Assembly (NCBI RefSeq): GCF_900102265.1
Contig: NZ_FNBH01000002.1
Coordinates: forward strand, 124,001 to 188,000
Source: Epilithonimonas hungarica
GTDB taxonomy: Bacteria; Bacteroidota; Bacteroidia; Flavobacteriales; Weeksellaceae
DNA length: 64,000 nucleotides
Direction of reading: 5' to 3'
The notes under the pieces were generated by a model. It was given only the letters and a program-made list of their open reading frames with translations. It had not been told where the DNA came from and made no database searches. The translations under genes were made by a program, and so were the position numbers. Below, piece after piece: positions 10,222 to 52,349 of the stretch; the stretch's first letter is position 1; each line of letters begins with the position of its first letter.

Positions 10222-11241
10222 TTACTCTGATTTTTTATTTTCTAAATCGTTTATTCTCTTAACTATCTCTGTAAAATTACGGAAATGCACATAGTTTCTT
10301 CTGTAATCGCTGTAATTGATTGCAGGCGAACCATAGAGCGTTTCCCCGTCTTTTGCAGAAGAATTGACGCCACTCTGGGCCTGAATTTTAACTTGATTCC
10401 CTATTTTGATATGACCGACAATTCCTACTTGTCCGCCAATCTGATTCCAATCTCCGATAACTGTAGAACCTGCTATTCCTGCCTGGGAAGCAATCACATT
10501 GTTCTGACCGATCTTCACGTTATGTGCGATTTGAATCAAATTATCGATCTTAGTTCCTTTTCCAATAATCGTAGAACCTATTGTGGCTCTATCAATACTG
10601 CAATTGGAACCGATCTCTACATCATCTTCGATAATGACATTTCCTAATTGAGGAATTTTCTTGAAACCTTCAGCAGTTGGCTGGAAACCGAATCCATCTC
10701 CCCCAACAACCGTATTGGAATGAATGACACAATTATCACCAACAATACAATAATCATATATTCTTGCGCCGCTGTCAATTTTGCAATTTTTTCCGATCTT
10801 CACACCTTTTCCGATGTAAACGTGTGGAAAAATCTGTGTTCCGTCTCCAATAATTGCTTTCTCAGAAACATATGTAAATGCACCAATATAAACATCCTCG
10901 CCTACTTTTGCAGTCTCATGGAAAAATGAACCAGCTTCTATCCCTGTCCTTCTCCCTTGCATCTCTTGATAAAGATTCATCAAAACCTGAAAGGAAAGAT
11001 AAGCATCTTCCACAACAATGATCACAGGTTTGTAATCTCTGTCCTCTATAAGATTTTCAGAAACTATCAAAACCGCACATTCCGTCGTATCGATATGATT
11101 GGAAAAACGACTTTGACCAACGAAAGACAAATGTCCCTGCTGACCATTTTCTATCGGCGAAACTCCTGTAATAACAGTCTTTCCATCGCCGATTATTTTG
11201 CCGTTTATTAATCCTGCAATTTGTTCTGCGCTAAATTCCAT
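10222..11241 (-). CDS. lpxD: UDP-3-O-(3-hydroxyacyl)glucosamine N-acyltransferase
   Basis: Third step of lipid A synthesis, N-acylation of UDP-3-O-acyl-glucosamine. From the ATG at 11241 it is 339 aa. A TTG three codons upstream (11250) is excluded because it lies inside a perfect -7 promoter box. The N-terminal uridine-binding domain covers about residues 1-100. Beta-helix hexapeptides then run to about 320, with the canonical GGDGFGFQPT loop and the catalytic His in NLIQIAHNVKIG. A helical tail ends in FRNFTEIVKRINDLE. It heads the lpxD-lpxC/fabZ-lpxA-efp operon. Its mRNA leader would be only a few bases long. Confidence 0.95.
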   Translation of the reverse strand: MEFSAEQIAGLINGKIIGDGKTVITGVSPIENGQQGHLSFVGQSRFSNHIDTTECAVLIVSENLIEDRDYKPVIIVVEDAYLSFQVLMNLYQEMQGRRTGIEAGSFFHETAKVGEDVYIGAFTYVSEKAIIGDGTQIFPHVYIGKGVKIGKNCKIDSGARIYDYCIVGDNCVIHSNTVVGGDGFGFQPTAEGFKKIPQLGNVIIEDDVEIGSNCSIDRATIGSTIIGKGTKIDNLIQIAHNVKIGQNNVIASQAGIAGSTVIGDWNQIGGQVGIVGHIKIGNQVKIQAQSGVNSSAKDGETLYGSPAINYSDYRRNYVHFRNFTEIVKRINDLENKKSE

Positions 11242-38272: not shown

Positions 38273-38311
38273 AATCTAAGACTGAATTTTTTATTACAGT
38301 GAATTGCAAAC

Positions 38312-38429
38312 TAGCCCCGATTGCAACGGCATCCTTTTTTGTTTTTTTTTGGATTTCTCAATTCATCTGGAATGACAGCTCGTCTAAAAAAACAAAAAAG
38401 ATATAGTGGAAAGCGGGATCAAGCTCCTA
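38312..38429. repeat. Dispersed palindromic repeat, family A, copy 1
   Basis: Left end TAGCCCCGATTGCAACGGCA and right end GGAAAGCGGGATCAAGCTCC, with a long internal hairpin of T-rich (TTTTTTGTTTTT) and A-rich (AAAACAAAAAAG) arms. The outer ends are themselves an imperfect inverted repeat. Copies 2 and 3 are at 43741-43819 and 56550-56683. Confidence 0.75.
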
Positions 38430-39814: not shown

Positions 39815-40528
39815 TTACGGCAACTGCATTGGAACTTCCATCAATAAAATTTCGGAATTTTCTTCAGCTTCCAAAACGAAACTTTCTATATCCCAAATCC
39901 CGAAACCGTCTCTGTCATTAAGAATCTGGTCACCGATCTTCGCTTTTCCTTTGATGACGAAAGCATAGACTCCGTTTCCTGATTTGTGAATTTTATATTC
40001 CTTAGAAAAACCCTTATCAAATTTCGCCAAGTTGAACCAAGCATCCTGATGAATCCACACGCCAGCATCATCCTGATTTGGGGAAAGAATCTGCTGGAAA
40101 TCATTTTGAACTGAGTTTTCTTCTATGCTGATCTGGTCATATCTTGGAGTAACATCAGTTTTGTTTGGGATGATCCAGATCTGTAGAAATTTCACTGGTT
40201 GCTCGGTCGCATTTTCCTCGCTATGCATAATTCCTGTTCCGGCTGACATTACCTGGATATCACCTTTTTTGATAATTCCGGAATTCCCCATATTATCGCC
40301 GTGACGCAAATCGCCTTCCAACGGAATAGAAATAATCTCCATATCGCGGTGCGGATGTCTCCCGAATCCCATTCCGCCTTCTACGAAATCGTCATTCAAA
40401 ACTCTGAGAACGCCGAAATGTGTTCTTTCCGGATTGTGATAATTAGCAAAACTAAAAGAATGATGACTTTTCAACCAACCGTGGTTTGCGTAACCTCTGC
40501 TGTCGGATTTGTGATATACTGTTTTCAT
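39815..40528 (-). CDS. Pirin family protein
   Basis: A 237-aa bicupin. The N-terminal cupin has HSFSFANYHNPERTHFGVLRVLNDD, the metal ligands HPHRDMEIISIPLEG and RHGDNMGNSG, and HSEENA, the standard set of three His and one Glu. The C-terminal cupin is degenerate. Bacterial pirins such as YhhW can have quercetin 2,3-dioxygenase activity and others modulate metabolic enzymes, but the physiological role is generally unclear. It lies between purD and ilvA on the same strand with gaps of over 100 bp on either side, so it is likely a single-gene unit. Confidence 0.92.
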   Translation of the reverse strand: MKTVYHKSDSRGYANHGWLKSHHSFSFANYHNPERTHFGVLRVLNDDFVEGGMGFGRHPHRDMEIISIPLEGDLRHGDNMGNSGIIKKGDIQVMSAGTGIMHSEENATEQPVKFLQIWIIPNKTDVTPRYDQISIEENSVQNDFQQILSPNQDDAGVWIHQDAWFNLAKFDKGFSKEYKIHKSGNGVYAFVIKGKAKIGDQILNDRDGFGIWDIESFVLEAEENSEILLMEVPMQLP

Positions 40529-41916: not shown

Positions 41917-41976
41917 TTATATTACAGATTCTTTGTTATTTATTTTAAACTTAATTGTTTTAATAATTTTTATAAT

Positions 41977-42044
41977 TCTCGCAGATTTTGCTGATTGGGC
42001 AGATTTAGAATTGTAAATCAGCTAAATTTGCTAAATCTGCGAGA
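41977..42044. repeat. Inverted repeat between ilvA and the ABC gene
   Basis: TCTCGCAGATTT (41977-41988) and AAATCTGCGAGA (42033-42044) form a perfect 12-bp inverted repeat; the inside has partly complementary TGCTGAT and ATCAGC. There is no T-run, so a terminator role is unlikely. It lies 12 bp beyond the ABC gene stop. Confidence 0.7.
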
Positions 42045-42056
42045 GTAAATTATCCT

Positions 42057-43704: not shown

Positions 43705-43740
43705 TATGATGTTAAATTTTAATTTTTATGACAAATCCCA

Positions 43741-43819
43741 TAGCCCCGATTGCAGCGGCATCCTTTTGTGATGAGGAACGAAGAGCAAAAGATATAGCGG
43801 AAAGCGGGATTAGCTCCTA
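43741..43819. repeat. Dispersed palindromic repeat, family A, copy 2
   Basis: The shortest and cleanest copy: left end TAGCCCCGATTGCAGCGGCA, right end GGAAAGCGGGATTAGCTCCT, and a 25-bp centre (GTGATGAGGAACGAAGAGC) between CCTTTT and AAAAGATATAGC. It ends three bases before the ilvC stop. With the palindrome at 43636-43704 it fills most of the 299-bp gap. The first part of the gap (43535-43615) has CGCAAAGGGCGCAAAG-type sequence and no gene. Confidence 0.8.
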
Positions 43820-43822
43820 ATT

Positions 43823-45304
43823 TTAAACAGTTTTGATAGACTTCATCGCCGTCATCGCCTGACGCAGTTTTCTACCGACAATTTCTACCGGATGATTTCT
43901 CAAAATATCGTTCACATAAACCAATTGTGCGTTGTCAACCGAAGTTTTTTTGCCCACGTTGAAGTCTTTTCCAACCAAATCCGTATCCACCGACTTCATA
44001 AAATCTGCCAACAAAGGTTTGCAAGCCTGGTCGAACAGGTAACAGCCGTATTCTGCAGTATCGGAAATCACACGATTCATCTCGAACAATTTTTTCCTTG
44101 CGATGGTATTGGCAATCAAAGGGGTTTCGTGAAGCGATTCGTAATAAGCGGATTCCGGCTTGATTCCGGCTTCAACCATCGTTTCAAACGCTAATTCAAC
44201 ACCCGCTCTGATGAAGGCCGACATCAAAAGATAATTGTCAAAATATTCCTGCTCCTCGATTTTCACATCGCCTGCCGGTGTTTTTTCAAAAGCTGTTTCT
44301 CCTGTTTCTGCACGCCATTTCAAAAGGTTGGCATCGCCGTTTGCCCAGTCTTCCATCATTGTTTTGGAAAATTCGCCGGAGATGATATCGTCCTGGTGCT
44401 TTTGGAAAAGCGGACGCATAATATCTTTCAGTTTTTCTGACAACTCAAAGGCTTTTAGTTTCGCAGGGTTAGAAAGTCTGTCCAGCATTCCGCTTACACC
44501 ACCGTGTTTCAAGGCTTCTGTAATGACCTCAACACCGTATTGAACCAATTTGGAAGCGTAACCTGCATCAATTCCTTTTTCGACCATTTTGTCAAACGAA
44601 AGAATAGAACCTGTCTGCAAAAGTCCGCACAAAATCGTCTGTTCTCCCATCAAATCGGACTTCACTTCTGCCACGAAAGAGGATTTCAAAACACCGGCTT
44701 TGTGACCGCCTGTTCCTACACAATATGCTTTTGCTTCTGCCCAGCCTTTTCCCTGAGGGTCATTTTCAGGATGAACGGCAATCAGCGTCGGAACACCGAA
44801 ACCTCGCAGATATTCGGCACGAACTTCGGAACCCGGACATTTTGGAGCGACCATAATCACCGTTAAATCTTTACGAATCTGCATCCCTTCTTCCACGATA
44901 TTGAACCCGTGTGAATAGGACAAAGTCGCACCCTGTTTCATCAAAGGCTGAACCGCATTGATTACCGAAGTGTGTTGCTTGTCAGGCGTTAAATTGATGA
45001 CCAAATCCGCAGAGGGAATCAGTTCTTCGTAAGTTCCGACTTTGAAATTATTTTCGGTTGCGTTTTTCCACGAATCTCTCTTTTGGTCGATAGCTTCCTG
45101 ACGCAATGCGTAAGAAACGTCCAGTCCGCTGTCTCTGAGATTCAGACCTTGATTCAGCCCCTGAGCGCCGCAACCAACCACTACGATTTTCTTTCCTTTC
45201 AATGCAGAAACGCCATCAGAAAACTCTGAACTGTCCATAAATTCCGCCTGTCCTAACTGATGCAACTGGTCTCTGAGTGATAAGGTATTGAAATAATTTG
45301 CCAT
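43823..45304 (-). CDS. ilvC: Ketol-acid reductoisomerase, class II
   Basis: Converts acetolactate and acetohydroxybutyrate to the dihydroxy acids, using NADPH and magnesium. It is 493 aa, the long class II form like that of E. coli. The Rossmann motif [16 protein letters not shown] is near residue 38. [21 protein letters not shown] and [17 protein letters not shown] carry conserved metal-binding acids. The duplicated C-terminal knot domains follow ([15 protein letters not shown] and [18 protein letters not shown]). It is fifth in the ilv series. A 105-bp AT-rich gap with AAGTAAAAAGTA repeats separates it from ilvN. Confidence 0.97.
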
Positions 45305-45409: not shown

Positions 45410-46000
45410 TTACATTGTGAAAACGTCATCTCGTTTGTCCAGGAATTCGTTTTCTACGATTTCGGCGGAAGGTTCTCTTTTTTCAAATTCGAGGACTTTG
45501 TCGTGGATTCCTCTGCTGTTTTTGATGATGGCGATTCTTGCGCCTCGTACAAATTCTATGAGACCGTATTTATTTAATTCTTCGGTTAAGCGGTCGATTT
45601 CTTCACGATGACCTGCCGTTTCAAAAACGATATAATCTTGTCGAATTACAACCGTAGAAGCGCCATATTGACGAAGCAATCTTTCGACGTAAACCTTTTC
45701 TGTCACAACACTTGCTGGAACTTTGTAAAGCGCCTGTTCTTGCCAGACAATTTCGTCATCTGTGTTGAAATAGGCTTTCATAATGTCAATCTGCTTCTCG
45801 AGTTGTCGGCAAAGTTTTCTTACGACCTCATCATTTTCATTAATGACAATCGTGAATCTGTGGATACCATCCACCTCAGAAGGTAACGTGTTCAAACTTT
45901 CAATATTGATTTTTCTTCGTGAGAAAATTCCTGATATTCTTCCGATTAATCCTACAGAATTCTCGGTGTATAGTGTGATGGTAAATTCTTGTTTTTCCAT
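45410..46000 (-). CDS. ilvN: Acetolactate synthase small (regulatory) subunit
   Basis: The regulatory subunit that binds valine and activates or inhibits the IlvB catalytic subunit. It is 196 aa, longer than the E. coli IlvN/IlvH forms. The N-terminal ACT domain reads FTITLYTENSVGLIGRISGIFSRRKINIESLN (residues about 5-36). The C-terminal ALS small-subunit domain (VYVERLLRQYGASTVVIRQDYIVFETAGHREEIDRL) spans about 105-165. A charged tail ends in EFLDKRDDVFTM. It follows ilvB by 7 bp, so the two subunits are coupled. The symbol ilvH is equally possible. Confidence 0.96.
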   Translation of the reverse strand: MEKQEFTITLYTENSVGLIGRISGIFSRRKINIESLNTLPSEVDGIHRFTIVINENDEVVRKLCRQLEKQIDIMKAYFNTDDEIVWQEQALYKVPASVVTEKVYVERLLRQYGASTVVIRQDYIVFETAGHREEIDRLTEELNKYGLIEFVRGARIAIIKNSRGIHDKVLEFEKREPSAEIVENEFLDKRDDVFTM

Positions 46001-46007
46001 TTCCTTT

Positions 46008-47750
46008 TTATTTAAGTCTGATTTCTGAAACCGAAGTTCCTTGTGCTACCATTGGAAAAACGTTGTTTTCTTTTCCAACCATTACTTCCAGAAGATAGGC
46101 GCCGTCATGGTTCAACATTGTTTCCAAAGCAGATTTCAGATTTTCTCTCTCAGAAATTCTTTGTCCATCGATGTAATAAGCTTTCGCCACTGCAACGAAA
46201 TCCGGACTTGTAATATTCACGAAAGAATAACGTCTATCATTGAATAATTGCTGCCACTGCCTTACCATTCCCAGAAATTCATTATTGAGAATCATGATTT
46301 TGACTCTAGCTCCGAATTGCATAATGGTTCCCAATTCCTGCAACGTCATTTGAAATCCGCCGTCTCCGATAATTGCGACAACTGTTTTTTCAGGTGCCCC
46401 ATACCAAGCCCCAATCGCCGCCGGCAAACCAAATCCCATTGTTCCCAATCCACCAGATGTTACGCTGGATTTTGAATTATTGAATTTCGCATATCGGCAA
46501 GTGACCATTTGGTGTTGACCAACGTCTGTTGCGATGATTGCGTCTCCATTAGTCAAATCATTCAGAACTTTGATAACCTCTCCCATAGTCAAAACTTCAG
46601 ATGTGGGATTGAGTTCTTCCTGAATGACTTCTTTGATTTCTTCTTTTTCCAATTCTCGAAATTCATTTAACCAAGCTGAATGGTCATTTTCGTTAAGAAG
46701 CGCAGTTAACATTGGTAAAATCTTTTTGCAATTTCCCCAAACCGGAACTGTGGTTTTCACATTCTTATCGATTTCGGCTGGGTCAATATCAAGATGAATA
46801 ATTTTTGCTTGTTTTGCATATTTGTCCAAACGTCCAGTCACCCTGTCATCGAAACGCATTCCGACTGCAATCAGAACATCACATTCGTTGGTCATTACGT
46901 TTGGTGCGTAATTGCCGTGCATTCCCAACATTCCGACGTGTAAAGGATGGTTGGTTTCCAAAGCACTCAATCCCATTACAGTCGCTGCTGCGGGAAGATT
47001 TGCCTTTTCAATAAACGCTTTGAATTCCCTCTCTGCTTTTCCCAAAATCACCCCTTGTCCAAACAGAACAAATGGTTTTTTTGCCTGATTAATCAATTCT
47101 GCGGCCTGTTCGATATACTCATTTCTGATTTCCGGCTCCGGGCGGTAGCTTCTGATGTGGTTGCATTTTTTGTAACCCAAATATTCAAATAATTGCATTT
47201 GAGCATTTTTGGTAATATCAATCAAAACCGGTCCTGGGCGACCTGTGCTTGCGATGTGAAATGCTTTGGCAATCGCTTCCGGAATTTCCGTAGCATCAGT
47301 CACCTGATAATTCCATTTTGTGACTGGCGTTGTGATGTTGATGACGTCCGTTTCCTGAAAAGCATCGGTTCCCAAAAGTGAGGCGAAAACCTGACCCGTG
47401 ATACAGACAATGGGATTGCTATCTATCATTGCATCTGCCAAACCTGTTACCAAATTCGTAGCACCTGGACCACTTGTTGCAAACACAACACCCGTTTTTC
47501 CCGAAGTTCTCGCAAATCCCTGAGCCGCGTGAATTGCGCCTTGCTCGTGGCGAACCAAAATATGTTTCAGTTTGTCGGAATAGTCGTACAGAGCATCATA
47601 GATTGGCATAATGGCGCCACCAGGATAACCGAAAACAGTATGTACATTTTCCTGCAACAACGCTTCTAAAACAGCTTTTGAACCGGAAATTTCTACCGGT
47701 TTGGGCTGTTCGGTTTCTGCTTTTTTTATTTGTGAAATGGTATTATTCAT
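46008..47750 (-). CDS. ilvB: Acetolactate synthase large (catalytic) subunit
   Basis: Thiamine diphosphate enzyme that condenses pyruvate with pyruvate or 2-oxobutanoate, the first common step of valine, leucine and isoleucine synthesis. It is 580 aa. The Pyr domain has VFGYPGGAIMPIYDALYD, the catalytic Glu in LVRHEQGAIHAAQGFAR and FATSGPGATNLVTGLADA. The central FAD domain follows. The PP domain has the ThDP motif IIGDGGFQMTLQEL (GDG) and ILNNEFLGMVRQWQ. The C-terminus ENNVFPMVAQGTSVSEI is typical. It is between ilvD and ilvN. The 140-bp gap on its upstream side carries three small hairpins. Confidence 0.97.
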   Translation of the reverse strand: MNNTISQIKKAETEQPKPVEISGSKAVLEALLQENVHTVFGYPGGAIMPIYDALYDYSDKLKHILVRHEQGAIHAAQGFARTSGKTGVVFATSGPGATNLVTGLADAMIDSNPIVCITGQVFASLLGTDAFQETDVINITTPVTKWNYQVTDATEIPEAIAKAFHIASTGRPGPVLIDITKNAQMQLFEYLGYKKCNHIRSYRPEPEIRNEYIEQAAELINQAKKPFVLFGQGVILGKAEREFKAFIEKANLPAAATVMGLSALETNHPLHVGMLGMHGNYAPNVMTNECDVLIAVGMRFDDRVTGRLDKYAKQAKIIHLDIDPAEIDKNVKTTVPVWGNCKKILPMLTALLNENDHSAWLNEFRELEKEEIKEVIQEELNPTSEVLTMGEVIKVLNDLTNGDAIIATDVGQHQMVTCRYAKFNNSKSSVTSGGLGTMGFGLPAAIGAWYGAPEKTVVAIIGDGGFQMTLQELGTIMQFGARVKIMILNNEFLGMVRQWQQLFNDRRYSFVNITSPDFVAVAKAYYIDGQRISERENLKSALETMLNHDGAYLLEVMVGKENNVFPMVAQGTSVSEIRLK

Positions 47751-47890: not shown

Positions 47891-49576
47891 TTATAAATCT
47901 GTGACGCAACCTTGTGATGCATCGGCTACAGACTTGGCGTATTTGTACAGCACGCCACGTTTCACTTTGTATTCCGGTTGTTGGAACTCGGCTTTTCTGT
48001 TGGCAATTTCTTCGTCTGACAAAAGAGCATTGATGGTATTTTTCTCTGCATCCAGTTCTATCACATCGCCATCTTTTATTAAGCCAATCAATCCTCCGGA
48101 AAATGCTTCAGGTGTAATATGACCAACTACAAAACCGTGCGTTCCTCCGGAAAATCTGCCGTCTGTAATCAATGCTACATTTTTTCCTAAACCCGAACCC
48201 ATCAAAGCGGAAGTTGGTTTCAGCATTTCCGGCATTCCGGGTGCACCTTTTGGTCCTTCGTTTTTGATAACGACTACGTTTCCTTCTTTGATTTTTTTGT
48301 CTTCGATGCCTTTGATGAATTCTTTTTCGCCGTCAAAAACGATGGCTGTTCCTTTGAAATATGCGCCTTCTTTACCCGTAATTTTTGCAACTGAACCTTT
48401 CTCGGCAAGATTTCCGTACAGAATTCTGATATGTCCTGTCGCTTTGATTGGGTCTTTGATATCGTGAATAATATTTTGGTCTCTTTCAATAATTGATGTT
48501 ACGTGTTCGAGATTTTCGGCAATCGTTTTTCCTGTTACCGTCAAGCAATCGCCGTGAAGCAGTCCTAAATCCAAAAGATATTTCATCACCGCCGGAATGC
48601 CACCAACATTGTGAAGGTCTTCCATCAAGTATTTTCCACTTGGCTTAAGGTCAGCTAAAAATGGCGTTTCATCACTGATTTTTCGGAAATCATCTAAAGT
48701 CAAATCGTATCCGATAGATTTTGCAATGGCGATAAAATGCAGAACGGCATTGGTGCTTCCACCCAAAATCATAATCAACCTTAAAGCATTTTCGAACGCT
48801 TTAGGTGTCATTATGTCGGATGGTTTGATATCTTTCTCCAAAAGGATTTTAACATAATGTCCAGCGAACCGACATTCTTCTTTTTTCTCTTTGCTTAAAG
48901 CTGGATAAGATGATGAATAAGGCAAACTCATTCCGAGCGCTTCGATTGCTGAAGCCATTGTATTAGCAGTGTACATTCCGCCACACGCACCGGCGCTTGG
49001 ACAGGAATTTTTTATCACGCCTTTGAAATCTTCGTCAGAAATTTTCCCTGCTATTTTATTTCCCAAAGCTTCGAAAGCAGAAACGATGTTCAAATCCTGA
49101 CCTTTGTAATGTCCCGGCGCGATACTTCCGCCATAGACCATAATTGAAGGTCTATCCAACCTAGCCATCGCCATCAAAGAACCCGGCATATTTTTGTCGC
49201 AACCTGGAACGGTAATCAATCCGTCGTAATATTGACCCGCGCAAACGGCTTCAATAGAATCTGCAATGATGTCGCGGCTTACGAGAGAATATCGCATTCC
49301 ATCGGTTCCGTTGGTCATTCCGTCACTGATCCCGATAGTGTGGAACATCAATCCAACTAAGTTTTGTTCTTTGACTCCTTTTTTTACAATCTCAGCCAGA
49401 CCATTAAGGTGCATATTACAAGTATTGCCGTCGTAGCCCATACTTGCGATTCCAATCTGTGCTTTGTCAAAATCTTCTTCTTCAAAACCAATCCCGTAAA
49501 ACATTGCCTGAGTGGCAGGCTGCGTTGGATCTTTTGTCAGGGTTTTGGAATATTTGTTCAGTTCTACGTTACACAT
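47891..49576 (-). CDS. ilvD: Dihydroxy-acid dehydratase
   Basis: Iron-sulfur enzyme that dehydrates dihydroxy acids to the 2-oxo acids preceding valine and isoleucine. It is 561 aa. Cluster cysteines are in [12 protein letters not shown] (about residue 54), [12 protein letters not shown] (about 125) and [14 protein letters not shown] (about 198). [16 protein letters not shown] and the C-terminal [19 protein letters not shown] block are conserved. ilvE lies upstream and its last 8 bases overlap the ilvD start, so the two are coupled. It is the second gene of the ilv operon. Confidence 0.97.
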
Positions 49577-50471
49577 ATTGTAAGTTTGATTTCAAGTATG
49601 AATAATCTTCTTCTAACACCAAATGACGATAAGCTTGCTGAACTTTCGATGCTAAACTCTCTTCCCAATTCAGTTTGAAAGGAACGTCATCAAGAGAACC
49701 TAACGCTACGATTTCGGCGGCTGTCCCACAGAAAAAACCTGCGTCTGCGCCTTTCATTTCTTCCGGTTTGAAGAATTTTTCCTCGTAAGGAATTCCAAGC
49801 TGGTCGCAGATTTCGAAAACTGTCGCTCTTGTAATTCCTGGAAGAATACTGCCTTTTGCAGGCGTGAAAAGTTTGCCGTCTTTTTCGAAGAAGATATTGG
49901 CACCGGAACTTTCGGCTACATTTCCGTCAGCATCCAGAACCAAAGCTTCATCAAAACCTTTGTCTTTCGCTTCCTGACAAGCTAAAATTGAATTCACATA
50001 ATGACCGCTTACTTTTGCTTCTACCTTGAAAGCTTTTGGATTCGGACGTTCAAATGATGATGTCATAATTCTCATTTGGTTGGCCATATAACCATTATCC
50101 CAATTCCAAACCTCGATGACGAGATAACTTTTTTGTCCTTTTGACAAGGCCATATTTGGAGAACAAATGACCAACGGGCGAATGTATGCGTTTGATAAAT
50201 TATTAATTTCCAATAATTTGTATGTTGCTTCCACCATTTCTTCAGTAGAATAATCGAAAGGCATCATCATTGTTTGGGCAGACCTTCTCAGTCTGTTGTA
50301 ATGTTCCTCTGCTTTGAAAATCTTGGTTCCGTTCGCGGTTTTGTAAGATTTAATCCCTTCGAAAACAGCATATCCGTAGTGTAACGATTGACCATACAAG
50401 TCGGTCTTGGCTTCTTTTGCTTTTACATATTCCCCATCAAAAAAGAGAACACTGTCGTCATTGAAATACAT
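49569..50471 (-). CDS. ilvE: Branched-chain amino acid aminotransferase
   Basis: PLP-dependent fold-type IV transaminase that makes valine, leucine and isoleucine from their 2-oxo acids. It is 300 aa, the normal length. The N-terminus ([34 protein letters not shown]) is characteristic. The PLP lysine is in [16 protein letters not shown] (about residue 155). [21 protein letters not shown] and [12 protein letters not shown] follow, then the phosphate-binding [13 protein letters not shown]. It is the first structural gene of the operon, 40 bp after an intrinsic terminator, and so is directly under the control of the upstream leader-peptide attenuator. Confidence 0.97.
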
Positions 50472-50510
50472 TTTGTATTGATTTTATATTTGTTTGTTAG
50501 ATTTAGGAAA

Positions 50511-50540
50511 ATAAAAAACCATCCTCGTGGTGAGAATGGT
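50511..50540 (-). terminator. Attenuator terminator of the ilv operon
   Basis: On the minus strand ACCATTCTC (50532-50540) pairs with GAGGATGGT (50518-50526), one mismatch, over a 5-base loop and is followed by TTTTTTATTTT. It lies after the leader peptide and before ilvE. Its first arm can instead pair with sequence overlapping the leader stop codon, which would block termination. Confidence 0.9.
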
Positions 50541-50585
50541 CTGTATTATTTCAATTCAATAATTATCACAAGCCATCACTCACCA
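50528..50585 (-). promoter_or_regulatory. Antiterminator pairing in the ilv leader
   Basis: TGGTGAGTGATGG (minus strand, 50585-50573), which covers the last sense codon and stop of the leader peptide and the next seven bases, is complementary to CCATTCTCACCA (50539-50528): TGGTGAG/CTCACCA and ATGG/CCAT with a small bulge. This uses the first arm of the terminator, so the two structures exclude each other. A ribosome stalled on the upstream Ile/Leu/Val codons leaves this arm free; one that reaches the stop codon covers it. Confidence 0.78.
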
Positions 50586-50636
50586 TCGGAATCCGATAAT
50601 GACAAGAATGACAAGAATAATGATTGTGTTATTCAT
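50580..50636 (-). CDS. ilv leader peptide
   Basis: An 18-residue peptide, MNNTIIILVILVIIGFRW, begins with ATG at 50636 and ends with TGA at 50580. Residues 5-14 are ten branched-chain residues in a row (six Ile, two Leu, two Val), encoded by common ATC, ATT, CTT and GTC codons. It lies between a -7-like promoter box and the attenuator terminator, 108 bp upstream of ilvE, the first gene of the branched-chain operon. This is the classical arrangement in which ribosome stalling at uncharged tRNA-Ile/Leu/Val lifts termination. The peptide itself is not expected to have another function. Similarity to proteobacterial IlvL is functional; I do not claim common descent. Confidence 0.9.
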   Translation of the reverse strand: MNNTIIILVILVIIGFRW

Positions 50637-50655
50637 CTGTTTATTTTCAACGGTA

Positions 50656-50663
50656 CAAATGTA
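50656..50663 (-). promoter_or_regulatory. -7 element of the ilv operon
   Basis: The minus strand reads TACATTTG, a TAnnTTTG match 20 bp before the leader ATG. No TTG stands 17-23 bp further upstream, so promoter strength or exact identity is uncertain. Confidence 0.5.
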
Positions 50664-50895
50664 TGAACTAATTCCAATAAACATTGTTTTTTTCATAAAA
50701 ATTTCTTTTCAATAATATTAAAAACACATAAAATATACATATTTTTACGATATTCATTAAAACAGAAATCAGGGATAAGGTATTGATTTTCAAGTTGTGA
50801 AAGCTGAAAAAATTACGATGCCTAAAATTTTACTTTGAATCTGCTATTTTGCTTTTGAATTTTAATTTTCGGTCAGATTTTAATCATTAAAACCG

Positions 50896-50920
50896 AAAAA
50901 TCCACCGATTGGTGGATCTA
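50896..50920 (-). terminator. Terminator after the MFS transporter gene
   Basis: ATCCACC pairs with GGTGGAT (50900-50906 with 50911-50917) over GATT; on the minus strand TTTTTCGG follows. It lies about 50 bp past the MFS stop and closes the PUL-side transcription unit. Between here and the ilv leader (50664-50895) the DNA is AT-rich with no gene seen. Confidence 0.75.
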
Positions 50921-50969: not shown

Positions 50970-52349
50970 TTAGAAATGAACCTGCTGGATCTCTTCTTCA
51001 ATTTCTTTTGGAGTTTCGTCTTCTGATCTAATGAAAACCATCGTTACAACAGCACCGATCAACATACAAACTCCGCCAACAACTACATAATCAATCGCCA
51101 TTTTTCCAAAAATGTTTGAAACGATTGGTCCGCCGAAAATCCCATTAATGATTTGAGGAATTACAATGAAGAAATTAAAGATTCCCATATAGACACCCAT
51201 TTTTCTTTGAGGAATTACTTCTATCAACATTGCATAAGGCATCGCTAAAATACTTGCCCAGGCAAATCCTAATCCTATCATAGAAATCCAAAGCAACGAC
51301 GTATCTTTTATAAAATACATCGATATCAATCCCAAACCTCCTGAGAACAAAGCCAAAGCGTGGGTTTGCTTTTTACCAAGGAATTTAGCAATTGGTGTCA
51401 ATAGAAAAGCAAATGGAATTGCCCAAAGATTATACATTCCGAATAATTTCCCAGTCAAATCTCCAGCATTGTTAAACGCTTCCGAATGTGTATCGTCCGG
51501 CGATAATCCAAAATGATGCGTTGCCAAAGCACTTGTTGTGAAAACCCACATTGTAAATAGTGCAAACCAAGAGAAGAACTGAACAATGCCCAATCTTTTC
51601 ATCTGAGTTGGAATGTTCGCAAAATCCTTGAATATATCTGAAAATTTGGAAGGTTCTGCAACTTCTTTCCCATCTTCGAAAGCTGCAAATTCTTCCGGAG
51701 AATATTCCTTAGTTGTGAAAATCGTGTAAAGAATAGTCAGAATCAAAAATCCTGCACCAACATAAAAAGAGAAAATTACGTTATCCGCTACAAATCCCTC
51801 TGGAGCAACATTCGAGATTCCTAATTTGGTCAACCAATCCGGAAGATAAGAACCGATTACAGCTCCGATTCCAATCAAAATTGTCTGAACAGAAAACCCG
51901 ATTGTTCCCTGATGTTTCGGAAGCATATCTCCAACCAATGCACGGAAAGGTTCCATTGCTACGTTGATAGAAGCATCCATCATCGCTAGAAAAATCACTG
52001 CAAGCAATAATACATTAGCAGCGATAAGATTAGTCACAGAAGCAGCGTTGGGAAGTAATACCAATCCAATTGCACAGAGAACCGCACCAATCAGAAAATA
52101 TGGTTTTCTTCTTCCAAGCGGGCTCCAAGTGTTATCTCCCATATGTCCGATAATCGGCTGAACAATTAATCCTGTAACAGGTGCTACAAGCCAGAACCAG
52201 GAAAGTTCGTGGACGTCAGCGCCCAAATTTGCAAGAATACGACTCGCATTCCCGTTTTGTAAACCAAATGCCATTTGGATTCCCAAAAATCCCATACTCA
52301 TATTGATAATCTGAGCCATTGAGAGATTTGGTTTTATTTTTTTTGTCAT
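50970..52349 (-). CDS. MFS sugar transporter (SLC45/maltose type)
   Basis: A 459-aa inner-membrane transporter of the major facilitator superfamily with about 12 transmembrane helices. The N-terminus (LSMAQIINMSMGFLGIQMAFGLQNGNASRIL) and GDNTWSPLGRRKPYFLIGA between helices 2 and 3 are those of SLC45-like transporters. Related bacterial proteins next to amylase genes take up maltose or maltodextrins. A large central loop (about residues 215-245, charged) separates the two halves. Its place at the end of the alpha-glucan PUL supports import of glucose oligomers made in the periplasm by the GH13 and GH97 enzymes. Substrate is inferred from context. Confidence 0.85.
   Translation of the reverse strand: MTKKIKPNLSMAQIINMSMGFLGIQMAFGLQNGNASRILANLGADVHELSWFWLVAPVTGLIVQPIIGHMGDNTWSPLGRRKPYFLIGAVLCAIGLVLLPNAASVTNLIAANVLLLAVIFLAMMDASINVAMEPFRALVGDMLPKHQGTIGFSVQTILIGIGAVIGSYLPDWLTKLGISNVAPEGFVADNVIFSFYVGAGFLILTILYTIFTTKEYSPEEFAAFEDGKEVAEPSKFSDIFKDFANIPTQMKRLGIVQFFSWFALFTMWVFTTSALATHHFGLSPDDTHSEAFNNAGDLTGKLFGMYNLWAIPFAFLLTPIAKFLGKKQTHALALFSGGLGLISMYFIKDTSLLWISMIGLGFAWASILAMPYAMLIEVIPQRKMGVYMGIFNFFIVIPQIINGIFGGPIVSNIFGKMAIDYVVVGGVCMLIGAVVTMVFIRSEDETPKEIEEEIQQVHF

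Follow-up and report, generated by a model that had tools for sequence, protein, structure and literature searches.

A probable leader-peptide attenuator of the ilv operon in Epilithonimonas hungarica, with related branched-chain leaders in other Bacteroidota

Results

A leader gene upstream of the ilv operon

The window analysed here is a 64,000-nucleotide stretch of the Epilithonimonas hungarica genome (contig NZ_FNBH01000002.1, positions 124,001 to 188,000), and all coordinates are those of the window unless another contig is named. Its minus strand carries five consecutive genes, ilvE, ilvD, ilvB, ilvN and ilvC, which were identified with NCBIfam models. On the same strand, 165 bases upstream of ilvE, lies the ATG of a very short gene:

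50898..50919, minus strand: terminator-like hairpin, seen in the sequence, behind the upstream transporter gene (50970-52349)
50656..50663, minus strand: -7 promoter element TACATTTG (TAHHTTTG type), assigned from the sequence by the consensus and spacing in PMC6847099
50580..50636, minus strand: leader peptide gene MNNTIIILVILVIIGFRW, 18 amino acids, stop codon TGA (UGA in the RNA)
50595..50624, minus strand: run of ten Ile/Leu/Val codons (codons 5-14), in which codons 9-14 are the predicted stall sites for antitermination
49569..50471, minus strand: ilvE, branched-chain aminotransferase, first structural gene (TIGR01122, 255.8 bits, above the cut-off)
47891..49576, minus strand: ilvD, dihydroxy-acid dehydratase, overlapping ilvE by 8 bases (TIGR00110)
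46008..47750, minus strand: ilvB, acetolactate synthase large subunit (TIGR00118)
45410..46000, minus strand: ilvN, acetolactate synthase small subunit (TIGR00119)
43823..45304, minus strand: ilvC, ketol-acid reductoisomerase (NF003557), where the operon presumably ends

An earlier sequence-only reading had picked out this peptide, with ten consecutive Ile/Leu/Val codons among its 18, as a leader. Its coordinates and peptide are right and the ten codons are present; it had left out the strand, which is minus (the plus strand at this position reads SPSESDNDKNDKNNDCVIH). The ilv operon is thus preceded by a small ORF in which codons for the operon's own end products stand in a row. We shuffled the 426-base intergenic stretch (50472-50897) 20,000 times with dinucleotides preserved, and in none of the shuffles did an ATG ORF reach ten in a row; the maximum was nine, reached in 5 shuffles. 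Among the 593 short ATG ORFs of the window (9-60 residues after the Met, both strands), the leader alone has a run of ten and one other has nine. Three further candidates were discarded: a longer in-frame start at 50696, which lies upstream of the -7 element; a run of nine at 10757, dropped after inspection by eye; and a run of ten at 40467, likewise dropped by eye, which lies inside ORF 39815-40528 in another frame.

TAHHTTTG is the -7 consensus for Flavobacterium johnsoniae, whose probable promoters have 4-5 bases between the -7 box and the start (PMC6847099). Because of this spacing, we infer that transcription starts some 4-5 nucleotides downstream of the box, near 50651. What had earlier been called a promoter-like box fits the Bacteroidetes -7 consensus, and it is conserved: TA.ATTTG stands 16-21 nucleotides before the leader ATG in all 33 rows of the alignment described below, with no -33 element evident upstream of the leader. 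Bacteroidota mRNAs lack Shine-Dalgarno sequences, according to the same paper. Because the transporter gene has its own terminator-like hairpin at 50919-50898, the leader and operon look like a separate transcription unit, and the leader probably needs its own promoter. The same hairpin was considered as part of a second leader in the window, a candidate that we rejected since the hairpin ends the upstream gene. The window also holds two Flavo-1 RNAs (RF01705) on the plus strand, one at 38309-38424 (70.8 bits; 116 bases long against a 76-position model) and one at 43738-43815 (60.1 bits), just beyond the end of ilvC and on the opposite strand to it; PMC9723704 offers no real functional clue to these RNAs.

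Three competing, conserved hairpins

The leader codons and the bases that follow them can form three mutually exclusive stems:

50572..50612, minus strand: protector hairpin 1:2, with its 5' arm in codons 9-15 and its 3' arm taking in the RW-stop codons and the bases immediately after them
50573..50584, minus strand: segment 2 (GGTGAGTGATGG), which partners segment 1 or segment 3
50529..50539, minus strand: segment 3 (CCATTCTCACC), which partners segment 2 (antiterminator) or segment 4 (terminator)
50513..50542, minus strand: intrinsic terminator 3:4 with T run, including an 11-pair hairpin at 50542-50516

The leader RNA folds at -40.9 kcal/mol, as compared with a shuffle mean of -29.1 (z -3.4; none of 200 shuffles was as low), and its predicted structure is a long hairpin that takes in the Ile/Leu/Val codons and the stop-codon region, followed by the terminator. 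When the first arm is removed, GGTGAGTGATGG is predicted to pair with CCATTCTCACC and so to occupy an arm of the terminator. In this folding model, the three stems correspond to those of a classical attenuator: a protector, an antiterminator and a terminator. The terminator at 50542-50516 and the competing hairpins had been overlooked in the sequence-only reading; both the sequence and its conservation place an intrinsic terminator between the leader and ilvE.

We assessed the stems, as drawn from the window, in an alignment (A1) of 33 distinct sequences: the window and 32 relatives. The terminator is paired in 99.3% of its pair cells, the antiterminator in 96.4% and the protector in 97.7%, with slid controls reaching at most 56.3%, 64.2% and 73.0%, respectively. 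The observed proportion of paired cells was equalled by 0, 1 and 0 of 500 column shuffles (in the order 3:4, 2:3, 1:2), and the observed covariation score by 0, 19 and 0. Just 2, 1 and 2 pairs have changed on both sides, counts that 178, 262 and 160 of the 500 column shuffles matched. Such a low number is to be expected with many letters taking part in two stems, but it leaves the proportion of paired cells as the main support for the stems. No Rfam 15 family exceeds its gathering score at the leader, where the best weak match is RF01859 (Phe_leader; 26.5 bits, with 55 needed). The relative from Chryseobacterium arachidis (L029) has lost the leader stop codon (TGG), giving a peptide of 26 amino acids, and its RNA still aligns with the stems.

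Pairing also accounts for a near-tandem repeat in the run, which the sequence-only reading had taken as a possible mark of how the run grew. CTTGTCATT is present twice, and its two GTCATT copies each find a partner among the two GATGG copies of the 3' arm. We therefore rejected the repeat as evidence of run growth, while growth by duplication is still compatible with it. Codon 11 is the free one, in an internal loop between the two stems, and reads CTT, TCT, TTT or ATT.

Modelled consequences of a stalled ribosome

To model a stall, we counted 13 nucleotides onward from the first base of the codon in the A site, masked the RNA up to that point and folded the remainder. At equilibrium and without a ribosome, the probability of the terminator is 0.99. 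An A site placed on any of codons 9-14 (V I L V I I) lowers this probability to 0.03 or less and brings that of the antiterminator to at least 0.96; from Gly15 to the stop codon, the terminator is back at 0.98 or more. Because codons 9-14 flip the switch and those from Gly15 to the stop do not, the end of the Ile/Leu/Val run coincides, in the model, with the end of the stall-sensitive stretch. A stall at codon 5 also flips the switch, and codons 6-8 still terminate, in this full-transcript equilibrium model. Codons 10-13 flip at all footprints from +10 to +16 nucleotides. When the stretch between run and terminator was shuffled, a flip was seen in 4% of 300 cases. The folding model and the conservation of the stems thus agree on an antiterminator that excludes the terminator and would be freed by a stall within the run.

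The same calculation was applied to 106 of 119 leader-terminator systems, which leaves aside 12 far-upstream ones and one spurious ORF. At equilibrium, a flip at an Ile/Leu/Val codon is predicted for 39 of the 42 type I leaders (all except L086, L094 and L095) but for only 21 of the 64 that belong to other types. When the transcript was folded as it would be before its second terminator arm is made, the first arm was occupied under stall, with medians of 0.80-0.98 in each of six groups, and mostly free with the ribosome at the stop codon (medians 0.00-0.17). With a shuffled middle, the medians under this fold were lower, at 0.48-0.65, and shuffled controls above 0.7 numbered 17 of 43 in type I and 0-1 per group elsewhere. 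Outside type I, the switch mostly becomes visible only under this earlier fold, which ends short of the second terminator arm.

Conservation within the genus and family

Our genus sample comprised 23 genomes. A covariance model of the leader element (R1) finds it before ilvE in all 16 that have ilvE (E <= 3.2e-21) and in none of the seven that do not; these seven also have no ilvD at E <= 1e-60 (one is 88% complete, and the query does find the window's own genome). In the window's own genome, R1 has a single match. The element is thus conserved in relatives and tied to the ilv operon. Short ORFs are common in AT-rich DNA, and this one might be a chance ORF before a plain operon with a stray terminator; the 16 of 16 occurrences, with the 0 of 20,000 shuffles above, already contradict such an origin, to which we give practically no weight. 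At E <= 0.01, R1 matches 100 of 296 family-sample genomes and 32 of 196 order-sample genomes, weak and presumably false matches included. Two weak matches (L239 and L241) were taken as false, since they stand before unrelated-looking genes with no convincing leader.

Could the gene instead exist for its peptide, conserved as a small hydrophobic protein? It has a hydrophobic segment, and its IIIxVIxVIIGFRW part is strongly conserved in the genus. However, it is only 18 amino acids long, and behind the Gly both the reading and the C-terminus vary (FRW, LPVMSNGS, SVMGNGL, or the lost stop of L029) while the RNA stays alignable and paired. Furthermore, the peptides of other lineages, described below, are dissimilar and share their Ile/Val content. 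We regard a protein function as most improbable.

Residue content follows the gene behind the leader

The sequence-only reading held that Ile, Leu and Val are sensed together, which stands for the codons of this species and fails as a conserved property. Leu8 is found in 11 of 17 distinct Epilithonimonas sequences versus 5 of 25 other type I leaders, and Leu11 in 12 of 17 versus 6 of 26; the replacements in the other type I leaders are mostly Ile, Ser or Phe. Nearly invariant among type I leaders are Ile10 (39/42), Ile13 (43/43) and Ile14 (42/43). We therefore rejected Leu sensing as a conserved function on the variation at Leu8 and Leu11: these sequences point to Ile and Val as the conserved signal, with Leu at most a local addition.

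Other amino acid genes carry leaders with other residues. The genome's own hisG (PF01634) is preceded by a histidine leader, MTTQFMHHHHHFLAQTGR, with a TACATTTG box (C5:596412-596356, minus strand; L223), whose RNA folds at -29.3 kcal/mol (z -4.7) and includes a terminator-like hairpin with a T run. Lone ilvA genes in two genomes of family f2 (L234 and L235) follow an Ile-only run and a terminator-like hairpin, the L234 peptide being MTNFNNIIIAIISIIAIQQ. Genus g16, which belongs to the window's own family, has two genomes (L236 and L237) with the leader MSLFTNIISIILILGQ.QGE before leuA. In these sequences, leader residue content follows the pathway of the gene behind it.

We also looked before other branched-chain genes of the genome. 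In a plus-strand scan of the 9.5-kb stretch with leuACDB (leuB assigned by PF00180, leuC and leuD by eye), two Ile/Leu/Val-rich short ORFs lie inside leuA and none before it, and a leader there was rejected. None was seen by eye in the 140-base gap before the genome's own ilvA. That gap (41917-42056) contains an imperfect inverted repeat (TCTCGCAGATTTAGC ... AATCTGCGAGA), and a similar CACAGATT-type repeat precedes ilvA in L234; these may perhaps be a REP-like element. In another genome of the same family (L240), a second his-type leader, MKPNFLTVHHYHHHLC, begins at about position 225 on the plus strand before a hisG-like gene, which was called by eye, has no NCBIfam match at 1e-60 and coincides with a weak R1 match.

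Leaders across Bacteroidota, single and in tandem

We also used a homology-free detector that calls an ATG ORF if it is 10-45 codons long, has 8 or more Ile/Leu/Val in 12 and is followed by a terminator within 110 bases. Upstream of ilvE, 83 of 105 distinct 600-base regions were positive (shuffles, 1/105; opposite strand, 0/105), many of these regions coming from the window's own genus and Chitinophaga and not being independent. The 105 are what remained of 125 regions when identical ones were collapsed, with L043 and L070 left out at contig ends; they were read for 70 of the 137 family genomes with ilvE (30 loci and 40 fetched), plus named loci. At least 209 genomes of the phylum have ilvD, and we read 90 places in 89 of them (30 loci and 60 fetched), chosen to spread over families: 40 of the 90 regions were positive (shuffles, 0, 1 and 0 of 90; opposite strand, 1/90). 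The other 50 had no such leader by this detector, and among the 25 distant ilvD regions L195-L219, only L200 has one; a leader may also fall beyond the region covered if another gene comes ahead of ilvD. The stem finder accepts unbroken stems only. It passed over the his terminator, which was seen by eye and in the fold, and likewise over the first terminator in 12 of the tandem cases described below.

The peptides differ widely among lineages. In g20, a large genus of the family that we take to be Chryseobacterium, other genomes have MYQLLSVIIIVIIIPLRL; Chitinophaga has MWVNKDNIKLNHIVPQLNWAITKVVIIVVVIISHQYGG, and family f2 of the same order, taken as Flavobacteriaceae, has MQISIIITSVVVVNVIHTSASGML. 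This bears on the idea that the locus is a cis RNA switch (a riboswitch or protein-bound leader) whose hairpins answer a metabolite or protein, the ORF being incidental. A structured, conserved 5' region with a terminator is what one would see in that case, and the absence of any Rfam family above its gathering score at the leader is compatible with it. Ile/Leu/Val-rich ORFs nevertheless recur before the operon despite differing RNA, which an aptamer would not need; the leader residues match the downstream gene (Ile alone in front of ilvA, His in front of hisG); and the model flips at the later Ile/Leu/Val codons and not from Gly15 on. An RNA switch of this kind is, in our judgement, very unlikely.

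The window element is a single leader, and doubled ones were found only in relatives. Two leader-plus-terminator units follow one another within 150 bases in 11 of the 105 ilvE regions and 6 of the 90 ilvD regions. In 12 further ilvE regions, the first leader is accompanied by a GCCTCCCGAGAAATC[A/T]GGAGGC hairpin, and a second leader was found in 11 of these (not in L117).

Tandem Ile/Val-rich leaders, upstream of ilvE or ilvD in several lineages: L103-L109, L125, L126, L127, L129; L110-L113, L115, L116, L118-L122; L134, L136, L150, L163, L174, L179

In L163, the two units are near-identical, as a recent duplication would leave them. In three further regions, L040, L041 and L044 (from about 600 to 0 bases before ilvE), a leader and terminator are followed by a decayed duplicate of the start of ilvE, with some hundreds of bases between this duplicate and the true ilvE. 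To judge from the sequences, this resembles a remnant of an incomplete tandem duplication, a possible route for leader duplications.

Discussion

We conclude, with a probability of about 0.93, that the window element is a classical ribosome-mediated transcription attenuator of the ilv operon. Leader-peptide attenuation, as first proposed from the sequence, finds support in the element's conservation and its occurrence together with the operon, in the conserved competing hairpins and the terminator, and in the stall model. In the mechanism that we propose, RNA polymerase would start about 15 nucleotides before the leader ATG. When charged tRNA-Ile and tRNA-Val (here also tRNA-Leu) are ample, the translating ribosome would reach the UGA and cover segment 2, so that 3:4 could form and transcription would stop before ilvE. 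A ribosome stalled on codons 9-14 for lack of these amino acids would cover segment 1 instead, allowing the 2:3 antiterminator to form and the ilv genes to be transcribed. With no translation at all, hairpin 1:2 would form and transcription would also be expected to stop.

More tentatively, and at somewhat less than even odds, the element may belong to a Bacteroidota-wide, largely unrecorded branched-chain attenuator system in which the leader residues track the gene (Ile alone with ilvA, Ile/Val with ilv, His with hisG) and which has undergone doubling more than once, with the same signal, in series. If this is true, two Ile/Val leaders in series would multiply partial terminations and give a steeper response to starvation. 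A limited literature search found no same-signal tandem Ile/Val leaders in published work. Lopatovskaya et al. (2010) may already have predicted Bacteroidetes attenuators.

Until its own Firmicutes case, and apart from the ermC leader, a 2010 survey knew leader peptide systems from Proteobacteria and Actinobacteria only (PMC2965389). The sequence-only reading had seen new ground in a flavobacterial case, which it is not: leader-peptide attenuation was proposed in 2021 at amino acid operons of Flavobacterium psychrophilum, where structured elements upstream of hisG and pheA are reported as conserved in the family (PMC9723704). The mechanism proposed there is the same as ours, and the main text contains no word that starts with ilv. 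In Corynebacterium, the ilvB-II uORF motif of ilvBNC gave a reporter response to rich versus minimal medium; it resembles the window element in its Ile/Leu/Val-rich uORF, terminator and antiterminator, and differs in phylum and gene order (PMC10272879). We therefore regard the kind of mechanism, a textbook one, as known, and the phylum-wide spread and the tandem versions as the newer part.

For the tandem versions, the closest likeness that we can offer is the mgtCBR leader of Salmonella, in which two leader ORFs on one transcript respond to different signals (ATP and proline), and which its authors call a singular example of a response to different signals (PMC3641672). Both arrangements have two leaders, whereas in the Bacteroidota pairs both are Ile/Val-rich.

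The window element would be a clean, testable branched-chain attenuator in a phylum with few attenuators described. Its codon-level prediction (codons 9-14 count and 15-18 do not), together with the tandem relatives, lends itself to tests of how attenuator sensitivity is tuned, and unannotated leader genes of this type are candidates for genome annotation. Close counterparts are the leader attenuators of ilvGMEDA and ilvBN in Enterobacteria, which have a short leader peptide with an Ile/Leu/Val run and protector, antiterminator and terminator hairpins. The likeness lies in the run, the three hairpins and the pathway; the differences are that the element described here has a -7 promoter of the Bacteroidota type, precedes an operon that begins with ilvE, and carries Leu codons that are dispensable in its relatives.
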